Source: Saprospiraceae bacterium (lineage in GTDB: Bacteria > Bacteroidota > Bacteroidia > Chitinophagales > Saprospiraceae). Taken from it: a stretch of DNA of 64,000 nt. The translations under genes were made by a program, and so were the position numbers. The stretch is taken from the NCBI GenBank assembly GCA_029212405.1, contig JARGNR010000027.1:1-64000 (forward strand), given 5' to 3'. Positions 31,277 through 62,795 of the stretch are shown piece by piece (position 1 is the first letter of the stretch; each line of letters opens with the position of its first letter). The notes below the pieces were generated by a model. That model had not been told where the DNA came from. It was given only the letters and a program-made list of their open reading frames with translations, and made no database searches.

Positions 31277-32881
31277 TTGTTAAACAAACTAAAAAAAATA
31301 GATCAGCTGGTCCTGAGAAGTTATTTGGGACCTTATATGCTTTCCTTTTTTATTGCCCAATTTGTTTTGGTGATGCAATTCTTATGGAAGCATATTGATG
31401 ATATTTTAGGAAAAGGATTTTCAATTATAGATCTGATTGAGTTGATCTCTTATTTTGCCATTACCCAAATTCCAATGGCACTTCCGATTGCCATTCTATT
31501 ATCCTCTGTCATGGTAATGGGTAATATGAGCGAGCGGTATGAACTCTCTAGTATGAAGTCCGCTGGTATATCTCTTGTACGAGTCATGCGGTCTTCTATT
31601 ATACTCGCATTAGCAACAGCCTCTTTGTCGTTATTTGCTTCTAATTATCTCAAACCATCTGCTCAGCTTCAGTTTAAAAAACGGATGTTGGCCATCAAAT
31701 CACAAAAACCATCTCTAGCCTTAGAAGAAAAAATATTTAATCGGGACTTTTCTGGGTATTCCATCAGAGTAAACGAAAAGGGAAAAGATGATGAATCTAT
31801 CGAAGATGTATTCATTTACGATCATACAATGAGCGACAAATCATTAATGAATCTAACAAAAGCGAATACGGGAAGAATGTATAATGATAGTGAAGGTGGG
31901 CTATTTATAATGGAATTGAAAGATGGTACTTCCTATCGGGAAATGAAGCGAAGTACTAAAAAGAAGGAGAAGGGTAAAAAATATCCTTTCATGCGTACAG
32001 ATTTCAAAGAATGGAAGAAAGTGTTTGATATGAGTGAGTTTGATACAGATGATGACAATGGATTAAATATTAGTGGAAGGAAAGAAGACATGCTAAACAT
32101 GTTTCAGTTAATGAATGCCATTGATTCTGTAAACCTCAGTAAGGAAGAACTCATTGAATCCGTTATAAATGCTCAAGAAAATCACACGAAAGCGATCGAG
32201 AATAGGGAAAGAAAGAAAACAACTACTACTCAATCAAAAACTGAATACTCGAAACAAGTAAAAAAGAAAATTTCAGACAACAAAAGGAGAGAAGAAATTG
32301 CCGCAGCCATGAAAAAGGCAAATTCTACATCAAAAAAAATAGTAAATAAAGCACTAAAAAAAGCTGTGGTTCAAAACCAAACTGATACGTTATCTTCCTA
32401 CCAAAATTGGCACCAAACTATAGCTAAGTCTGATCCAAATAACTTGTACGTAAAAGCAATTCAAAATAGTAGTAGAAGGAAAGATCTATTGCGAAATGCA
32501 ACTACTAATATCACATCATTAGAGTATAAAAAGAATAAATATTACCTCAGATTAAACCAACAATTCAGTTTTGCTATGATTTGTATTGTGTTTTTATTTG
32601 TAGGTGCTCCGCTAGGCAGTATTATCAGAAAAGGGGGATATGGATATCCACTCTTATTTGCCATATTGTTTTATATGATGTTCATAATCACAACCATAAT
32701 GGGGGAAAAACTGGTCCGTGGCGGATCGATGAATCCGATTCTAGCAGCATGGTTAGCAAACATGATTGTTTTACCTGTTGGTATATGGTTGACAATAAAA
32801 GCGCTACGAGATAGTAAATTTGAACAGCCTCAATTCATTTCAAATTTCATAGCTAAATTCAAACGAAAAGAATTAAGTTAA
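31277..32881 (+). CDS. LptF/LptG family permease (YjgP/YjgQ)
   Basis: A transmembrane component of the LPS export ABC complex that extracts LPS from the inner membrane. Six helices are visible: three near the N-terminus (about residues 23-37, 63-80, 102-120) and three near the C-terminus (about 433-448, 455-474, 493-507). They flank a large periplasmic region. The family pattern RYELSSMKSAGISLVRVM (about 92-109) is present. At 534 residues it is much longer than the E. coli proteins of about 360. The extra length is a lysine- and glutamate-rich helical stretch (about 285-370). The start codon must be TTG at 31277 for the family's amphipathic N-terminal helix (LKKIDQLVLRSYLGPY); the next ATG is 60 bases later. 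Confidence 0.9.
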   Translation: MLNKLKKIDQLVLRSYLGPYMLSFFIAQFVLVMQFLWKHIDDILGKGFSIIDLIELISYFAITQIPMALPIAILLSSVMVMGNMSERYELSSMKSAGISLVRVMRSSIILALATASLSLFASNYLKPSAQLQFKKRMLAIKSQKPSLALEEKIFNRDFSGYSIRVNEKGKDDESIEDVFIYDHTMSDKSLMNLTKANTGRMYNDSEGGLFIMELKDGTSYREMKRSTKKKEKGKKYPFMRTDFKEWKKVFDMSEFDTDDDNGLNISGRKEDMLNMFQLMNAIDSVNLSKEELIESVINAQENHTKAIENRERKKTTTTQSKTEYSKQVKKKISDNKRREEIAAAMKKANSTSKKIVNKALKKAVVQNQTDTLSSYQNWHQTIAKSDPNNLYVKAIQNSSRRKDLLRNATTNITSLEYKKNKYYLRLNQQFSFAMICIVFLFVGAPLGSIIRKGGYGYPLLFAILFYMMFIITTIMGEKLVRGGSMNPILAAWLANMIVLPVGIWLTIKALRDSKFEQPQFISNFIAKFKRKELS

Positions 32882-32892
32882 TCTAATTTTAT

Positions 32893-32900
32893 TACCTTTG
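32893..32900 (+). promoter_or_regulatory. Bacteroidota -7 box of the cobalamin uptake operon
   Basis: TACCTTTG matches TAnnTTTG exactly, just after the LptF/G stop codon and about ten bases before the riboswitch aptamer. That is where the promoter of a riboswitch-led transcript should be. Confidence 0.65.
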
Positions 32901-32907
32901 ATCACAC

Positions 32908-33076
32908 TTATGGTTCAATTGATAACAGTATCAATGATTAAAAGGGAATTTAGTGAAAATCTAAAACTATACCCGTAGCTGTAAACTTCGAATCTTATTC
33001 TAGATCGTATATAACCACTGAATTTAATTTGGGAAGGTTGATCCAAGAATGAAGTGAGTCAGAAGACCTGCCATGT
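32908..33076 (+). ncRNA. Cobalamin riboswitch aptamer
   Basis: The conserved blocks of the adenosyl/aqua-cobalamin riboswitch occur in order and spacing. They are GGTTC at 32912, AAAGGGAA at 32941-32948, TAGTGAAAATC at 32951, ACCCGTAGCTGTAAAC at 32971-32986, CCACTG at 33015-33020, GGGAAGG at 33031-33037, and GTCAGAAGACCTGCC at 33058-33072. The short P1 helix ATGG/CCAT closes it. Downstream, GTGTTG/CAACAC (about 33133-33146) and an A-rich tract make the likely expression platform, probably acting on translation since no terminator T-run is seen. High cobalamin should repress the receptor and lipoprotein genes that follow. Confidence 0.92.
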
Positions 33077-33149
33077 GTAAATAATTTGAATTTTTTCGGG
33101 AATAATTTAATTCAAAAGTATCCAAGATTTCAGTGTTGTTCAACACGTG

Positions 33150-33194
33150 ATGATGCTTTTGTATAGTTGTTTCATAAAACAAAAAAAAATATAG
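33150..33194 (+). other. Short upstream reading frame in phase with the receptor gene
   Basis: ATG-ATG opens a 14-codon frame (MMLLYSCFIKQKKI) that ends in TAG at 33192-33194. It is in the same phase as the receptor gene whose signal peptide follows directly. It could be a leader peptide, or the true N-terminus cut off by a nonsense mutation. Confidence 0.35.
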
Positions 33195-33197
33195 AGC

Positions 33198-35018
33198 ATC
33201 AATTTTAGTCGAATCATAGCAATTATATTCTGTATATGTATTTATACAATATCATTCTCTCAAGAAGAATGGAAGGCAACGATTGATTCTATTTTTATTC
33301 TTGATCCAAATTATAAACCTGCAACCATTCAACTGAAACAAAGTAATCTCAACCATGGCTCGATATTAAACACATTGGAAAATCAAACTTTTGGAGCTGT
33401 AAGAACAGGAGGCCCAGCTGTGCTCTCCACTGTTCTTCATCGAGGAATGGCATCTAGACATTTAGGTGTTTTGTGGGGAGGATTTAATATTCAAAGTGCA
33501 GTCAATGGTACATTTGATTTTAATTTGATTCGGAATTCATTTGACCAAGCCAAGTTTTATCAAAATGGAACAAGCATTATCACAGGAAATGCAAGCATGG
33601 CTGGAGCTATTGGGCTCTCTAATGTATTGACAACCTCTAACTCCACAGCACTTTCATTGTATAGAAACACCACAAAAAACACCTCAGTTAATCTAATAAA
33701 CAAAACAACATATAAGAAGTACAGCCAGCACATTGGTGTACAATTCACAAAAGATCAAAATGAGTATTCCTACAAAAATGGACCTCAAATTGTAAAGCAA
33801 GATCAGGCCGAATTTAACATGTGGGATGTAAATTATTCAGCCCGATTAAGCGCATTCAATCAGTGGATGTTCAGTTGGGGAGGATGGTTTCAACAAGCAG
33901 ATCGACAAATTCCTCCAACGAAAACGTCTGTTAATATCGATCAAAATCAGAAAGATGTAAATTATAGAGGTTATGCTCATATTTCTTATGCCCTAAATAC
34001 AAAAAGCAGGTTAAGACTAAGGAGTGCTTATTTCAACGAAAAAATTGAGTATACAGCTCCAGGCATATTTTCATTATCTCATGCTAATGTCTATAATTCT
34101 GCCATTGATTTTGTCCATGATTCTGGATTTACACTTGGCTCTCAAATTCGTTTGGATAGGGTAGATGCAAGTTTTTATGATCCGAAACATAATAGAAATA
34201 CAATAGCCTTCTTTGCGAATAAGGAATTACAGATTAAATCTTTAGAATTAGGTCTATCAATGCGATATGAACGAATCGATGGTTCTTCGCAACCGCTTGT
34301 AATGGGACTTCGCCTAAAAAAAGAACTATCAAGTAGGATTTCAACAGAACTACGATATAATAAAAGCTATACGCTTCCTTCCTTTAATGATCTGTATTGG
34401 CCATCAGGAGGAAATCCACTTTTAAAAACGGAAAATAGCCATGAATTCGATCTTGATTTTGCTTATACCAACAAAAAGGAAGGGTCGATTCACTTCAATC
34501 TCTTTTTCAATTTAATAGATGATTGGATTCAATGGACACCCATAGAAGGATTTTTTCAACCCGTAAACCAACGAAAAGTAAGAAATATAGGATTAGAATT
34601 TAGGTATACAGACAGTTATAAGATTAGTCAGAATGGCAAAATAAAACTCAATTTATTATATGGTTTTACCGATAGCCGACTGATCAAACATTATTACAAT
34701 GCTGACTTTGAGGGAAACCGGACTGTATTTGTTCCGCAGCATAAAGTGACTGGGTCGATTGCGTACTTATTTACGAATTGGAGATTCCAATTGAATCCAA
34801 TTTATTATAGCAAACGTTTTGACACGACAGACAATTCAACCTCCGTTTCTGGCTTCTTCTTGATGGACTTTGAAATTCAAAAATCTATCCCCCTTAATAA
34901 ACGAACTCTATCCTTTTTACTTAACATAGAAAACGGTTTAAATAATGATTATGAAAATATCCGTTTTTACCCCATGCCATTGAGAATATTAACATTTGGC
35001 ATACAACTTAAAATGTAA
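33198..35018 (+). CDS. btuB: BtuB-like TonB-dependent receptor for cobalamin, start codon anomalous
   Basis: An outer-membrane TonB-dependent receptor under a cobalamin riboswitch. A signal peptide is readable in frame from about 33198 (INFSRIIAIIFCICIYTISF, cleavage at SFSQ). It is followed by a plug domain (TGGPAVLSTVLHRGMASRHL, GNASMAGAIGLSNVL) and a beta barrel ending ILTFGIQLKM. That gives about 606 residues, near E. coli BtuB. No ATG, GTG or TTG exists in frame between the TAG at 33192 and a TTG at 33375, which lies within the plug and would lose signal and TonB box. I place the start at the ATC of 33198 provisionally. Either a non-AUG start, a nonsense mutation or an assembly error is involved. 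The BtuG-like gene follows after five bases. Confidence 0.8.
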   Translation: MNFSRIIAIIFCICIYTISFSQEEWKATIDSIFILDPNYKPATIQLKQSNLNHGSILNTLENQTFGAVRTGGPAVLSTVLHRGMASRHLGVLWGGFNIQSAVNGTFDFNLIRNSFDQAKFYQNGTSIITGNASMAGAIGLSNVLTTSNSTALSLYRNTTKNTSVNLINKTTYKKYSQHIGVQFTKDQNEYSYKNGPQIVKQDQAEFNMWDVNYSARLSAFNQWMFSWGGWFQQADRQIPPTKTSVNIDQNQKDVNYRGYAHISYALNTKSRLRLRSAYFNEKIEYTAPGIFSLSHANVYNSAIDFVHDSGFTLGSQIRLDRVDASFYDPKHNRNTIAFFANKELQIKSLELGLSMRYERIDGSSQPLVMGLRLKKELSSRISTELRYNKSYTLPSFNDLYWPSGGNPLLKTENSHEFDLDFAYTNKKEGSIHFNLFFNLIDDWIQWTPIEGFFQPVNQRKVRNIGLEFRYTDSYKISQNGKIKLNLLYGFTDSRLIKHYYNADFEGNRTVFVPQHKVTGSIAYLFTNWRFQLNPIYYSKRFDTTDNSTSVSGFFLMDFEIQKSIPLNKRTLSFLLNIENGLNNDYENIRFYPMPLRILTFGIQLKM

Positions 35019-35023
35019 CTATT

Positions 35024-36061
35024 ATGAACAGAATATTAGTTTGGGCTTCGGCTTTAGTATTGATTGGTTTCACATCGTGTGGTGATGATACACCAGATAA
35101 GACAGAATTCAAAGATGGTGTCTTTATTGTTAACCAAGGTGCTTTTAATTCAGGAACTGGAACGCTAACATTTAAAGAGAGAAACAGTCCAACCATTTAT
35201 CAAGATGCATATTCGATGAATAATGAGGGAGCATTCTTGGGAAATATAGCACAATCAATGATTGAACACAATGACAAAAATTTCATTGCGATCAATAATG
35301 GGGGAAAAATTGTGGTTACAGATAGTGATGATTTGACTCTAGTAGATACGATATCAACTATTCAACAAGGAAGATATTTTGCCAGTAATGGAGATCAACT
35401 TTATTTAACATACTGGGGCGATACCGGCTCAAATGGTGGAATTTGTGAGATCAATGGATCTACCAACTCAATAGAAGAGGTAGTGGAATTGGGAAATGGC
35501 CCAGAAGGAATTCTATTTGTAAATGACTTATTGTATGTGGCAAAAGGAGGTGGTTTTTCAAGAGATTCATTGGTGCTAATCATTGACCCAGATGATAACT
35601 CGATTGTCAAATCAATAGTCGTTGGAGATAACCCTGGGCTCCTTGTAAAAGATAATGATGAAAACGTTTATGTAGTTTGTAGAGGGCATAGTGATTTTTT
35701 TGAACCGGCGAACAACACGAATGGAAGATTAGTTAAGCTTTCGAACCAAGATATAGCATGGTCATTTGAAATACCAAATGGATCACAAGCACTTGCTATT
35801 GATACAGAGAATCAATTTCTTTATTTTTCAGACGGAACCAACGTTGTAAAACAAAGCTTAAATGCGACTGAACTGGATACCAAAATTGTAAAAGACATAA
35901 ATGCTTATAGTCTTGGGTTTGATTCTGATGAAAAACACCTCTATGCAAGTGACGCAAAGGACTTTAATTCACAAGGAGAAGTATTTGTGATCGGTTCAGA
36001 TGATATAGAAATCGAATCTTTTCCTGCCGGCATTATACCTGGATATTTCTATTTTAAATAA
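35024..36061 (+). CDS. btuG: BtuG-like surface cobalamin-binding beta-propeller lipoprotein
   Basis: A 345-residue lipoprotein: MNRILVWASALVLIGFTSCG with the lipobox cysteine at residue 19. The mature part is a YncE/DUF5074-type beta propeller built from repeats such as FKDGVFIVNQGAFN, NGPEGILFVNDLLYVAKG, VGDNPGLLVKDNDENVYVV and GFDSDEKHLYASDAK. In Bacteroides, BtuG of this type caps BtuB on the cell surface and captures cobalamin with very high affinity. The same role is inferred here from fold, lipidation and position directly after a riboswitch-controlled TonB receptor. It is the last gene of the operon; a long inverted repeat follows. Confidence 0.82.
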   Translation: MNRILVWASALVLIGFTSCGDDTPDKTEFKDGVFIVNQGAFNSGTGTLTFKERNSPTIYQDAYSMNNEGAFLGNIAQSMIEHNDKNFIAINNGGKIVVTDSDDLTLVDTISTIQQGRYFASNGDQLYLTYWGDTGSNGGICEINGSTNSIEEVVELGNGPEGILFVNDLLYVAKGGGFSRDSLVLIIDPDDNSIVKSIVVGDNPGLLVKDNDENVYVVCRGHSDFFEPANNTNGRLVKLSNQDIAWSFEIPNGSQALAIDTENQFLYFSDGTNVVKQSLNATELDTKIVKDINAYSLGFDSDEKHLYASDAKDFNSQGEVFVIGSDDIEIESFPAGIIPGYFYFK

Positions 36062-55134: not shown

Positions 55135-55187
55135 TACTGAAAGATCGTGATATTTAATACGTCCAAACAATTGGTAAAAGAACAAGA

Positions 55188-56300
55188 GTGAAAATATTAG
55201 CAAAGACGCTTGAAGGATTAGAGCATGTGTTAGCAGATGAAATTACATCTATAGGAGGGTCCAATATAAAAATACTAAAAAGAGCAGTCCAATACGAAGG
55301 TGACAGAGCGGTATTGTACAAATCCAATATTCTTTTACGTACTGCTTTACGTATTCTTGTCATAAAAAAAGAATTCGTTGTCAAAAATGAACAACAATTG
55401 TATCGTGCTATATTTGAAATTCCATGGGAAACCATTATGAAACTTCAAGATACGTTTGCTATTGACAGCACAACCAACTCTGAGGTTTTTACACATTCCA
55501 AGTATGTAGCGCTAAAATCCAAAGATGCAATTGCTGATCGATTTGTGAAAAATTTTGGTAAAAGACCAAATGTAAATGTTCATACTCCTACTTACAGAAT
55601 AAATATTCATATTCGAGGCACTAAGGTGACCCTTTCTTTGGATAGTTCTGGCGAATCATTGCACATGAGAGGCTATAGAATGAATACAGTGGATGCACCA
55701 ATAAATGAGGTCTTGGCTTCTGGGTTGATTTTATTGTCAGGCTGGGATCGACATAGTCCTTTGATTGATCCTATGTGTGGTAGTGGAACATTTCTTATTG
55801 AAGCTGCACAACTAGCATTGAACATTCCACCTCAATTAAAAAACAGACGATTTGGGTTTAAAAAATGGAAATCATTTGATTCAAATTTATATGATTCATT
55901 GTGGGAAGGAATAAGTAAAGAGATAAAGGATATTCCGGTACAAATCTCTGGTTCAGATAAATCCTTAAGATGTGTAAAAGTCACCCAACAAAATCTATTA
56001 GAAGCAAACTTGAGCGATAAAATTCAAGTCATAAAAAAGGACTTCTTTAAGTTCCATCCCCCAAAAGGAAGTACGATTATCACCAATCCACCTTATGATG
56101 AAAGACTAAAGGAATCAGATATAAACCAATTCTATAAAAACATAGGAGAAAAAATTAAAAAGGACTTTCACCAGACGAATATTTGGATTTTTAGTGGTAA
56201 TCTCGATGCATTGAAATATATTGTTCTTGAAAACATAAAAGAGCATTCTATGATGAATGGTGGACTTCCTGCTAAATTTATTAATTACGATTGGAGATAG
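55188..56300 (+). CDS. THUMP-domain class I RNA methyltransferase (RlmL-like)
   Basis: A 370-residue SAM-dependent RNA methyltransferase. An N-terminal ferredoxin-like and THUMP domain (KTLEGLEHVLADEI to about residue 150) is followed by the methyltransferase: DPMCGSGTFLIEAAQLALN (SAM site, about 198-216), SGSDKSLRCVKVTQQN and the catalytic ITNPPYDERL. It matches the N-terminal RlmL type that makes m2G2445 in 23S rRNA, without the RlmK half. The start is GTG. It leads a run of three genes. Confidence 0.92.
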   Translation: MKILAKTLEGLEHVLADEITSIGGSNIKILKRAVQYEGDRAVLYKSNILLRTALRILVIKKEFVVKNEQQLYRAIFEIPWETIMKLQDTFAIDSTTNSEVFTHSKYVALKSKDAIADRFVKNFGKRPNVNVHTPTYRINIHIRGTKVTLSLDSSGESLHMRGYRMNTVDAPINEVLASGLILLSGWDRHSPLIDPMCGSGTFLIEAAQLALNIPPQLKNRRFGFKKWKSFDSNLYDSLWEGISKEIKDIPVQISGSDKSLRCVKVTQQNLLEANLSDKIQVIKKDFFKFHPPKGSTIITNPPYDERLKESDINQFYKNIGEKIKKDFHQTNIWIFSGNLDALKYIVLENIKEHSMMNGGLPAKFINYDWR

Positions 56301-60522: not shown

Positions 60523-61065
60523 CTACCACCTCCACTCATCCACATATTTAATAAATATTTTTGCCGTATTTTCAGCATCGGAGATTGCTCTATGGTGGGT
60601 TCCCGTAAATTCTATTCCTTCCTTTTTTAGGGTATTTTTAAGCCCGGTAAGCTTGTGTTCTCCTTTAATTTCGTGATATTCAGCTTTAAGGTCAGTAGAT
60701 GATTCCAACCATTCTAGGTCCATTTTATGCAAAATACAATTGTCCGTCAACATCACCTTATCATATTTGCCCCATGAACATAATCTATAATCTTCTTCAT
60801 AAATATTAATCCAGTCTTTGAATTGCTCTACAACTTTAGGATAAATATTTGCTCGATCTACATTTTCTTGACTTATACTTGTAAGCTTCTTGCAGAATCC
60901 AGATAATTTTGGATTGACAGTTGGTTTAACAAATTTGCTGAATGTTCCCAATACTTCTCCAGTGGGATCAACCATAACAGCTCCAATCTCAATGACCTCA
61001 TTAATTCCTCCTGGGGGCCTACCCAACCAACAAGTTGCTTCTAAATCATAAATTATAAACCTCAC
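60523..61065 (-). CDS. DEDDh 3'-5' exonuclease
   Basis: A 180-residue exonuclease of the RNase T / KapD / ERI-1 group. Exo I is FIIYDLEATCW with the Asp/Glu pair (residues about 6-10). Exo II has the aspartate in CSWGKYDKVMLTDN, and Exo III has the histidine and aspartate in HHRAISDAENTAKIF. All four carboxylates and the histidine are present, so it should be active on RNA or DNA ends. It overlaps the upstream acyltransferase gene by four bases (ATGA), so it is translationally coupled. Confidence 0.92.
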   Translation of the reverse strand: MRFIIYDLEATCWLGRPPGGINEVIEIGAVMVDPTGEVLGTFSKFVKPTVNPKLSGFCKKLTSISQENVDRANIYPKVVEQFKDWINIYEEDYRLCSWGKYDKVMLTDNCILHKMDLEWLESSTDLKAEYHEIKGEHKLTGLKNTLKKEGIEFTGTHHRAISDAENTAKIFIKYVDEWRW

Positions 61066-62768
61066 AAGATTGAATTTTCTAAAATGGGATCACTTATTTT
61101 TATTAAATCTTCCCATTTTACAGTTTGTTCGAGTTGATAGCTATCTAATCGGTTGTGATAAAAATACAAGAGTCTGAAATTTTCAGACATCAATGCACCA
61201 TCTTTTTTAACTTTTAATACTTTTTGAGGGTGATACAACCCTAAATGTTTCACACCATCTTCAATAAGTTCCTCAGGAGAAAGCTGCATCGCTTTCGATA
61301 ATCTCAATTTACCTTGTTTTTCCAACCTCTTTAGTGTTGTTTGCATCTTTCGAATTACTTTTAGAAACAACTCTTTTTCAATTTCAAATCCAGCAGGAGG
61401 TATGTTTAGTACATCGTACAAATTGAGTTCAGAATGTTGGTTTAATAGTATTCTAAATGCCGCAAAAGCTACTAAATGAGAACTGAGCACTACATTATTT
61501 ACTTTATAGCTCTCAACAATTTTATCCCCTAATAATTTGGTATACACCTTCTCTCTTTGATAAACCGTTTGCACTTCACCGTCCAGTTTAAAATAACCCG
61601 ATATATCAATAATATTTCCATGCTTATCCAGTGAATTTCCTTCTTCATCTACCGGATGTCCAAAAACATCCATTGGTCTTCCAAAGGAGAGCTCAATATC
61701 TGACTGTTTTCTAATTATTGACCAAATGAATTTCATCAGTTTACCAGAAGGCTTTCCAGTCTCCCTAGATTTAGTATATTTTTCCTTCCCTGTTCTTCGT
61801 AAATATTGGTCGATTAATGACTTTGCTTCTAAAACGAAGTGATAATTTAGCACCAATGGAACGACATAAATCTTGTTGTCATCTCCATTCGCTATAGCAT
61901 GCCTCTGCGCTTCAACCATCGACCCCAATAAACCCAACTTCAGTTTATCTTCTAATTTTCCATCTCTAGCTCTGGTGCCTCCAGGAAAAAATATTTGATT
62001 AACATTGTTTTGCAATGAAAAGGAAGCCATACTCTTAAGACATTCCAAATAAATTGGATTTTTCTTTCTTCTATCTACTCTATATGCACCCAATCGATTG
62101 ATAAAATAGGCCACAATTTCATTATCCAATAAATTCAGACCTGCCCCATACGACGAAGCGGGAACGCCCACTACTGCATCCAACGCATATCCAATAAGTA
62201 TAGAATCCAAATTTGAAAAATGAGTTGGAACAATAACAACAGTTCCTTTTTGAAATATAGAACGCAATTCATCCACATACCCATGTAGCTTTATTTTTTG
62301 CGTCACTTGATCTCTATTTCCCCACATTCTTTTTTGACCTTTGAATGTGGCTGGATTTAATAATCTTTTAAAAAATGAGGATAAGAAATTTCTGGAGAAC
62401 TTAAATGTTTTCAATTTGAAATAACCAACAATTTCTTCATTGTACCTATTGATAATCCGGTCTACTATAAGGTGTAGTTGATCTTCTCTATCCTCAAAAG
62501 TCTTTGCTACTTCTATTTCCTTTTCTAGTTCTTTCCAATATCGTTTGTCATCAACTGGATCAACCTTCCATGGATTATTTTTAACTCTTAACTTTTCTAG
62601 ATAAATGGTCTTATCCAAAATATCTTCAACCGGTGTCTTATTGTCTTCAAAAAGCCTGCTCCGTGTATATGCATTTAAGTTAGAAATAAATTCCGCCCTA
62701 TTTTCGCTGATCTTGTAGATCGGCCACTTTTTGATGTCAGGAATTATATGTGGTAGAGTGCTTTTCAA
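61062..62768 (-). CDS. PlsB-like glycerolipid acyltransferase
   Basis: A 568-residue acyltransferase of the PlsC/PlsB superfamily. Block I has HX4D in VPTHFSNLDSILIGY (about residues 181-195), block III reads IFFPGGTRARDGKLEDKLKL, and a proline block is present in IYVVPLVLNYHF. It should transfer an acyl chain to glycerol 3-phosphate or a related lipid at the inner membrane. The large flanking N- and C-terminal regions (residues 1-170 and 330-568) set it apart from plain PlsC and resemble the long Bacteroidota acyltransferases of unknown acceptor. Confidence 0.87.
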   Translation of the reverse strand: MKSTLPHIIPDIKKWPIYKISENRAEFISNLNAYTRSRLFEDNKTPVEDILDKTIYLEKLRVKNNPWKVDPVDDKRYWKELEKEIEVAKTFEDREDQLHLIVDRIINRYNEEIVGYFKLKTFKFSRNFLSSFFKRLLNPATFKGQKRMWGNRDQVTQKIKLHGYVDELRSIFQKGTVVIVPTHFSNLDSILIGYALDAVVGVPASSYGAGLNLLDNEIVAYFINRLGAYRVDRRKKNPIYLECLKSMASFSLQNNVNQIFFPGGTRARDGKLEDKLKLGLLGSMVEAQRHAIANGDDNKIYVVPLVLNYHFVLEAKSLIDQYLRRTGKEKYTKSRETGKPSGKLMKFIWSIIRKQSDIELSFGRPMDVFGHPVDEEGNSLDKHGNIIDISGYFKLDGEVQTVYQREKVYTKLLGDKIVESYKVNNVVLSSHLVAFAAFRILLNQHSELNLYDVLNIPPAGFEIEKELFLKVIRKMQTTLKRLEKQGKLRLSKAMQLSPEELIEDGVKHLGLYHPQKVLKVKKDGALMSENFRLLYFYHNRLDSYQLEQTVKWEDLIKISDPILENSIL

Positions 62769-62795
62769 GCAAATAAATTTTTAATGGTACAAAAA

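Follow-up and report, generated by a model that had tools for sequence, protein, structure and literature searches.

The window analysed here, a 64,000-nucleotide stretch from the draft genome of a Saprospiraceae bacterium, carries on its forward strand a btuB-like receptor gene that follows a cobalamin riboswitch aptamer and precedes the gene of a probable BtuG-type partner:

31277–32881, + strand: LptF/LptG-family permease gene with a TTG start, the upstream neighbour, a type of gene that neighbours btuB in 14 other loci
32894–33089, + strand: cobalamin riboswitch aptamer (Rfam RF00174; 97.6 bits, gathering threshold 31.5)
33150–33194, + strand: 14-codon frame that opens with ATG-ATG and ends at a TAG, its ATGs coinciding with the switching strand
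33198–33200, + strand: proposed btuB start codon ATC, from the sequence and a stop-to-stop alignment of homologues
33198–33263, + strand: proposed signal peptide of 22 codons, ending in SFSQ, assigned by eye
33198–35018, + strand: btuB-like TonB-dependent receptor gene, 606 codons plus stop, from frame and homology
35024–36061, + strand: DUF5074/YncE-like gene, probable BtuG-type partner, from a domain match and PDB similarity

The receptor has no match in Pfam and scores 46 bits against the NCBIfam BtuB model TIGR01779, below the equivalog cut-off of 599.7; we call it BtuB-like on the basis of the riboswitch, the partner gene and its similarity to solved BtuB chains (8p98_A, E 1.9e-26). The product of the DUF5074 gene resembles the partner chain in the same BtuB entries (E 4e-15), which we take to be BtuG, and a DUF5074-type neighbour lies beside btuB in 35 other loci. 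In joining a BtuB-type receptor to a partner-type next gene the locus is like the BtuB–BtuG complexes of PDB 8p97/8p98, 8bmx and 8blw, whereas the receptor itself is distant in sequence from the PDB BtuB chains and shorter, at 606 residues against about 690–713. It is the only BtuB-like match in the source genome (E 0.001), and the aptamer, which spans model positions 1–189 and scores above the curated Rfam threshold, is the only RF00174 match there. The genome contains the MetH activation domain and gave no match to the MetE N-terminal domain or to CbiC, so the organism is probably dependent on B12 uptake. Given a stop-free run of 606 codons, a riboswitch of 97.6 bits, an intact partner, no second BtuB-like match and MetH without MetE or CbiC, the receptor gene looks alive.

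The beginning of the gene is unusual. A TAG at 33192–33194 stands directly before the receptor reading, and the frame is then free of stops from 33195 to 35015 (607 codons) until a TAA closes it at 35016–35018; from the ATC at 33198 this leaves 606 codons with zero stops. The earliest in-frame ATG, GTG or TTG is the TTG at 33375, and the earliest ATG lies at 33447. In the same frame, ATG ATG at 33150–33155 begins the 14-codon frame (MMLLYSCFIKQKKI) that the TAG closes, and past the TAG the translation runs S-INFSRIIAIIFCICIYTISFSQ-EEW, which by eye resembles a good signal peptide. The original prediction had pointed to the TAG without a canonical start before 33375, to the ATG-ATG frame of 14 codons, to a signal peptide directly 3' of the TAG ending in SFSQ, and to a receptor intact over more than 600 codons as an argument against old decay; frame reading, and for the signal peptide inspection by eye, agree with all of this. 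Across 343,954 bases of the source genome (the window plus 20 other stretches) we kept 151 frames open for at least 250 codons, and among the 12 latest-starting of them, read by eye, only the receptor had an N-terminus evident before any ATG, GTG or TTG. In two other frames no start appeared before codon 56; one is an undefined ORF (ATG at 64) and the other is N-masked. The receptor was also the sole frame without ATG, GTG or TTG before codon 60 among 52 frames lying 3' of cobalamin aptamers in 60 genomes, a set in which the gene is not btuB in every case. TTG and GTG starts occur at some rate in the source genome; the gene at 31277–32881 (+) is listed with TTG, and in two further window genes the first ATG lies deep inside, at codon 151 (61064–62780, − strand) and codon 93 (55157–56297, + strand).

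To place the start we inspected the 5' regions of 129 homologues in related genomes and built a stop-to-stop alignment of 21 rows in which no start was chosen in advance. The starts of the other 20 rows fall 1–4 codons downstream of ATC 33198, with an ATG one codon past it in 9 of the 20, although the signal peptides align loosely, which fixes the region of the start and not the exact base. The conserved N-terminus thus precedes the first ATG, GTG or TTG, and the AUH codon nearest the aligned starts is ATC 33198, which yields (M)NFSRIIAIIFCICIYTISFSQ. The next in-frame AUH codon, ATC 33213, lies at least four columns past the ATG column of the homologues and as a start would lose the sole charged residue of the n-region; starts at ATC 33213, ATA 33216 or ATT 33222 all leave an n-region without charge. 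As 20 homologues begin 1–4 codons beyond it, ATC 33198 is likely to be the btuB start. There is an A at −3 of this codon, a position at which A favours initiation in Flavobacterium johnsoniae according to PMC6847099; we give it little weight, as it is uncommon at btuB starts generally, occurring at only 22 of 85 btuB ATG starts.

Among other genes, E. coli infC starts with AUU. AUC itself initiates poorly in E. coli, a point against the proposed start. The AUU starts of infC and of B. burgdorferi pncA have experimental support, whereas the AUC proposed for btuB is read from sequence. For pncA the AUU was proposed on like grounds (PMC13398362), namely that the conserved N-terminus precedes the earliest canonical start. 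In our search of the open-access literature, none of the entries listed reports a non-AUG-started btuB behind a riboswitch.

The leader between aptamer and receptor can form three helices that compete for the same bases:

32972–32975, + strand: L5 CCCG, complementary to the CGGG of L13 in sequence and presumed to pair with it
33085–33116, + strand: P13 hairpin, 33085–33092 with 33109–33116, its L13 CGGG at 33097–33100, from sequence and folding
33113–33161, + strand: anti-sequestor, 33113–33122 with 33152–33161 (10 pairs), which excludes both P13 and the sequestor
33151–33201, + strand: sequestor hairpin from folding, 33151–33159 with 33193–33201 (9 pairs), then a second helix of 33161–33164 with 33189–33192 (4 pairs) and an inner stem of 33167–33172 with 33177–33182

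The L5 sequence fits the corrinoid riboswitch consensus UCCCG given in PMC10653944, and 38 of 52 leaders carry an L13-like motif, TTCGG[AG], no more than 120 nt past the aptamer, against about 5% expected. As judged from sequence and folding, P13, anti-sequestor and sequestor are mutually exclusive and the initiation site lies in the sequestor, where the strand 33152–33161 pairs with AGAGCATCA, the segment that contains the ATC. The original prediction missed that the ATG-ATG belongs to the 5' arm of this hairpin, opposite a 3' arm with most of the TAG and the ATC, and that the 5' strand can pair instead with the 3' side of P13. With the proposed start inside the hairpin by which the riboswitch appears to shut the gene off, the odd codons before it are probably elements of the switch rather than marks of a damaged gene.

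The modelled hairpin plus its competitor is our most solid new point. In 2,000 dinucleotide-shuffled leaders, scored with thresholds taken from the observed case, a 9-pair helix covered the start in 7, and in 0 of these was there a competing helix as well. The folding energy of the sequestor is more modest evidence (−12.7 kcal/mol, z −2.69, equalled by 3 of 200 shuffles), and a longer stretch around it gave z −1.06, equalled by 32 of 200. When P13 was enforced in folding, the anti-sequestor fell to 0 and the start was fully paired; with P13 absent, the start was still 0.79–0.92 paired and the anti-sequestor reached just 0.09–0.22. In these models thermodynamics alone favours the OFF state, and the low weight of the anti-sequestor without P13 means that something would have to assist the ON state; folding during transcription might do so, with the anti-sequestor formed in full before the sequestor's 3' arm is transcribed. 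No intrinsic terminator was found between 32600 and 33500.

In our best explanation, to which we give a probability of about 0.52, the leader is a translational B12 riboswitch that works by known logic, and its OFF hairpin buries an unusual start codon, AUC. With B12 bound, the L5–L13 contact would hold P13, the strand 33152–33161 would join the sequestor and the start would be buried; with B12 absent, P13 would open, the anti-sequestor would form and the ATC would be free. PMC10653944 describes corrinoid riboswitches in these terms: the kissing loop holds P13, and where it does not, the 3' side of P13 binds the 5' strand of the OFF hairpin. The E. coli btuB translational switch and the P. megaterium metE transcriptional switch share aptamer, L5/L13 and P13, and the P13, antiterminator and terminator of metE follow the same alternative-helix logic as the window leader; the difference is that the OFF hairpin predicted here would hide the start codon (ATC) and not a Shine-Dalgarno site or a terminator. 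Bacteroidota mRNAs are without Shine-Dalgarno sequences and their initiation is tuned by structure near the start (PMC6847099), and since there is no such site to mask, the switch would conceal the start codon itself. The least sure step is that ribosomes would initiate at AUC, weakly and with low yield, which may suffice for a scarce, high-affinity receptor. A gene that appeared broken or suppressed thus becomes a base-by-base model of a B12 riboswitch with the start codon in its OFF hairpin. Should initiation at AUC prove true, a phylum that lacks Shine-Dalgarno sequences would gain a nutrient receptor started naturally at AUC, whose signal peptide would escape gene finders restricted to ATG, GTG and TTG.

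Close relatives of the receptor were sought in genome contigs, which gave two Pontibacter loci at 23–24% identity, in 60 relatives and 398 family genomes, where none of the matches listed exceeded 34%, and in plasmid records (seven, all below 60%). Three other species of the genus (G001–G003) have btuB homologues 22–24% identical to the window's copy, and other genera of the family reach 30–34% among the matches listed, an observation to which loci L024, L039 and L067 belong; the copy in the window may derive from a different lineage. As no close relative was found, a recent loss of the start codon and a base error are both still candidates.

A recent loss, by a point change in this strain that left the receptor little made or not made and decay not yet begun, is the stronger of the two, though we hold it the less probable account beside the buried AUC start. 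It gains from the 9 of 20 aligned homologues with an ATG one codon from the ATC, and from single copies elsewhere that seem to lack a start: genome G416 has ACG (L191) where an ATG stands in its congeners G404 and G395, and G360 may be another case, with ATC (L196) where its congeners G330 and G274 have ATG, although a GTG 14 codons upstream could serve. A dead receptor would sit poorly with its being the sole BtuB-like match behind the only cobalamin riboswitch in a genome that has MetH but gave no match to MetE or CbiC, with 606 otherwise undamaged codons, and with an ATC that closes a helix with the leader. An error of sequencing or assembly at an ordinary start codon is improbable. The assembly is a draft in 222 contigs, a single base would suffice, and nine consecutive A stand shortly before the start; that run precedes the TAG, however, so that a length error in it would neither remove the TAG nor create a start, and none of the 150 other long frames shows the same defect.

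The original prediction had set a non-AUG start under riboswitch control, perhaps reached by termination-reinitiation from the 14-codon leader, beside TAG suppression and a nonsense mutation. Its non-AUG start survives as the likeliest of these, at the ATC indicated by the homologue alignment, and its idea of reinitiation as a conserved device does not. Translation of the leader would open the hairpin, terminate at TAG 33192 and restart at the ATC 3 nt past the stop, a geometry that fits and that has a precedent in M. tuberculosis ppe2, where a short ORF likewise lies between a B12 riboswitch aptamer and the gene and ends beside its start (PMC11260477). We counted ATG frames of at least five codons ending between −30 and +12 of the start, and such leader ORFs were found in 21 of 69 leaders (window counted) against 23.6 expected from shuffles, no more than chance; of the two things that the prediction would have compared in related genomes, the start has counterparts near the ATC and the leader ORF is not conserved. 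In contrast to ppe2, the uORF here shows no sign of conservation, the start is ATC, and the ATGs lie within the switching strand, in or beside pairs in both predicted states. By analogy with ppe2, reinitiation in the source genome alone is possible, but as an account of the locus we rate it quite unlikely. Readthrough of the TAG from a leader ATG, for which the frame runs continuously across the TAG, or a start at TTG 33375, the first canonical one, is hardly credible, as the starts of the aligned homologues lie between the TAG and 33375, and a start at that TTG would delete the signal peptide. Suppression of the TAG is unneeded for the same reason, and a nonsense mutation misframes the problem, in which a start codon is missing and not a sense codon.

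The preferred reading, an AUC start hidden by the switch, has a wider setting in the starts of related btuB genes. The 129 homologues are mostly top-scoring matches and not a random sample, truncated matches having been skipped, and they were compared with 70 other plug-domain TonB receptors, also high-scoring, from 30 of the same genomes, 29 of which were picked for a btuB called non-ATG, the other being the window's genome. The tighter of two start callers gave 86 ATG, 30 TTG or GTG, 12 without a start and 1 open for btuB, against 63, 6 and 1 without a start for the controls (TTG/GTG p 0.012; all non-ATG p 0.0003). By eye, ATG was absent in 33 of 129 btuB and 5 of 70 controls (p 0.0012), a share that makes start strength in riboswitch genes countable across genomes. 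Seven of the 12 rows without a called start have an ATG by eye (G330, G274, G410, G029, G395, G404 and G018), G280 has a TTG and G354 reaches the contig end, which leaves the window's genome, G360 and G416. G004, called TTG, also has an ATG by eye, as have the controls L232 and L257, further up or down; the start of G016 is doubtful, being ATG in one count and TTG in the leader tests. L215 was considered as a start-less homologue and set aside, as a GTG is present. The looser caller gave 94 ATG, 29 TTG or GTG and 6 neither or open for btuB, against 67, 3 and 0 for the controls (Fisher p 0.0005), but it is unreliable, having miscalled the window gene and G155 as ATG from a later ATG. All these Fisher p values ignore kinship and are therefore optimistic. 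The non-ATG rows are spread over 18 genera and are clustered in a quick tree of 46 rows, where the start label changes 7 times against 11.5 in shuffles; the window's clade has 9 of 18 rows non-ATG.

For the leader tests, the 12 homologues without an assigned start were dropped and 117 kept. Non-ATG starts were found in 25 of the 69 leaders with a short aptamer motif and in 7 of the 48 without (p 0.011). An Rfam scan of 20 loci found the aptamer in 9, and four loci with non-ATG starts (L090, L092, L209 and L147) had none at Rfam score, which means that weak starts do not go with the riboswitch only. Of the 68 leaders used in the helix count (window counted), 9 had a 9-pair helix over the start (2.3 expected), and 2 had such a helix together with a competitor (0.2 expected); the excess of helices over the start persists without the window (p 0.0019). 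Pairing of the start as a family-wide rule was rejected, with a mean of 0.64 against 0.62 in shuffles over 69 leaders.

More speculatively, the start codon of riboswitch-controlled btuB could be part of the switch across this Bacteroidota family, its identity traded against the tightness of the riboswitch. Weak starts (TTG, GTG and here ATC) would then be kept since leakage must be low, and the window's start would have turned into ATC for the sake of the sequestor helix, which that base closes and which folds at −12.7 kcal/mol as found and at −8.9 with G in its place. We hold such a trade-off doubtful, and slightly less probable since the stricter count of controls narrowed the contrast in start codons.

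At three of the loci, L090, L092 and L209 (G095 and G187), btuB adjoins an lptF/G-like gene and starts with GTG or TTG, with no riboswitch at Rfam score; in L092 and L209 an ATA precedes the TTG start. Five other leaders (L039, L063, L067, L058 and L048) have by eye an apparent second inverted repeat after P13, different in sequence in each and followed by a pyrimidine-rich stretch, perhaps a different expression platform.
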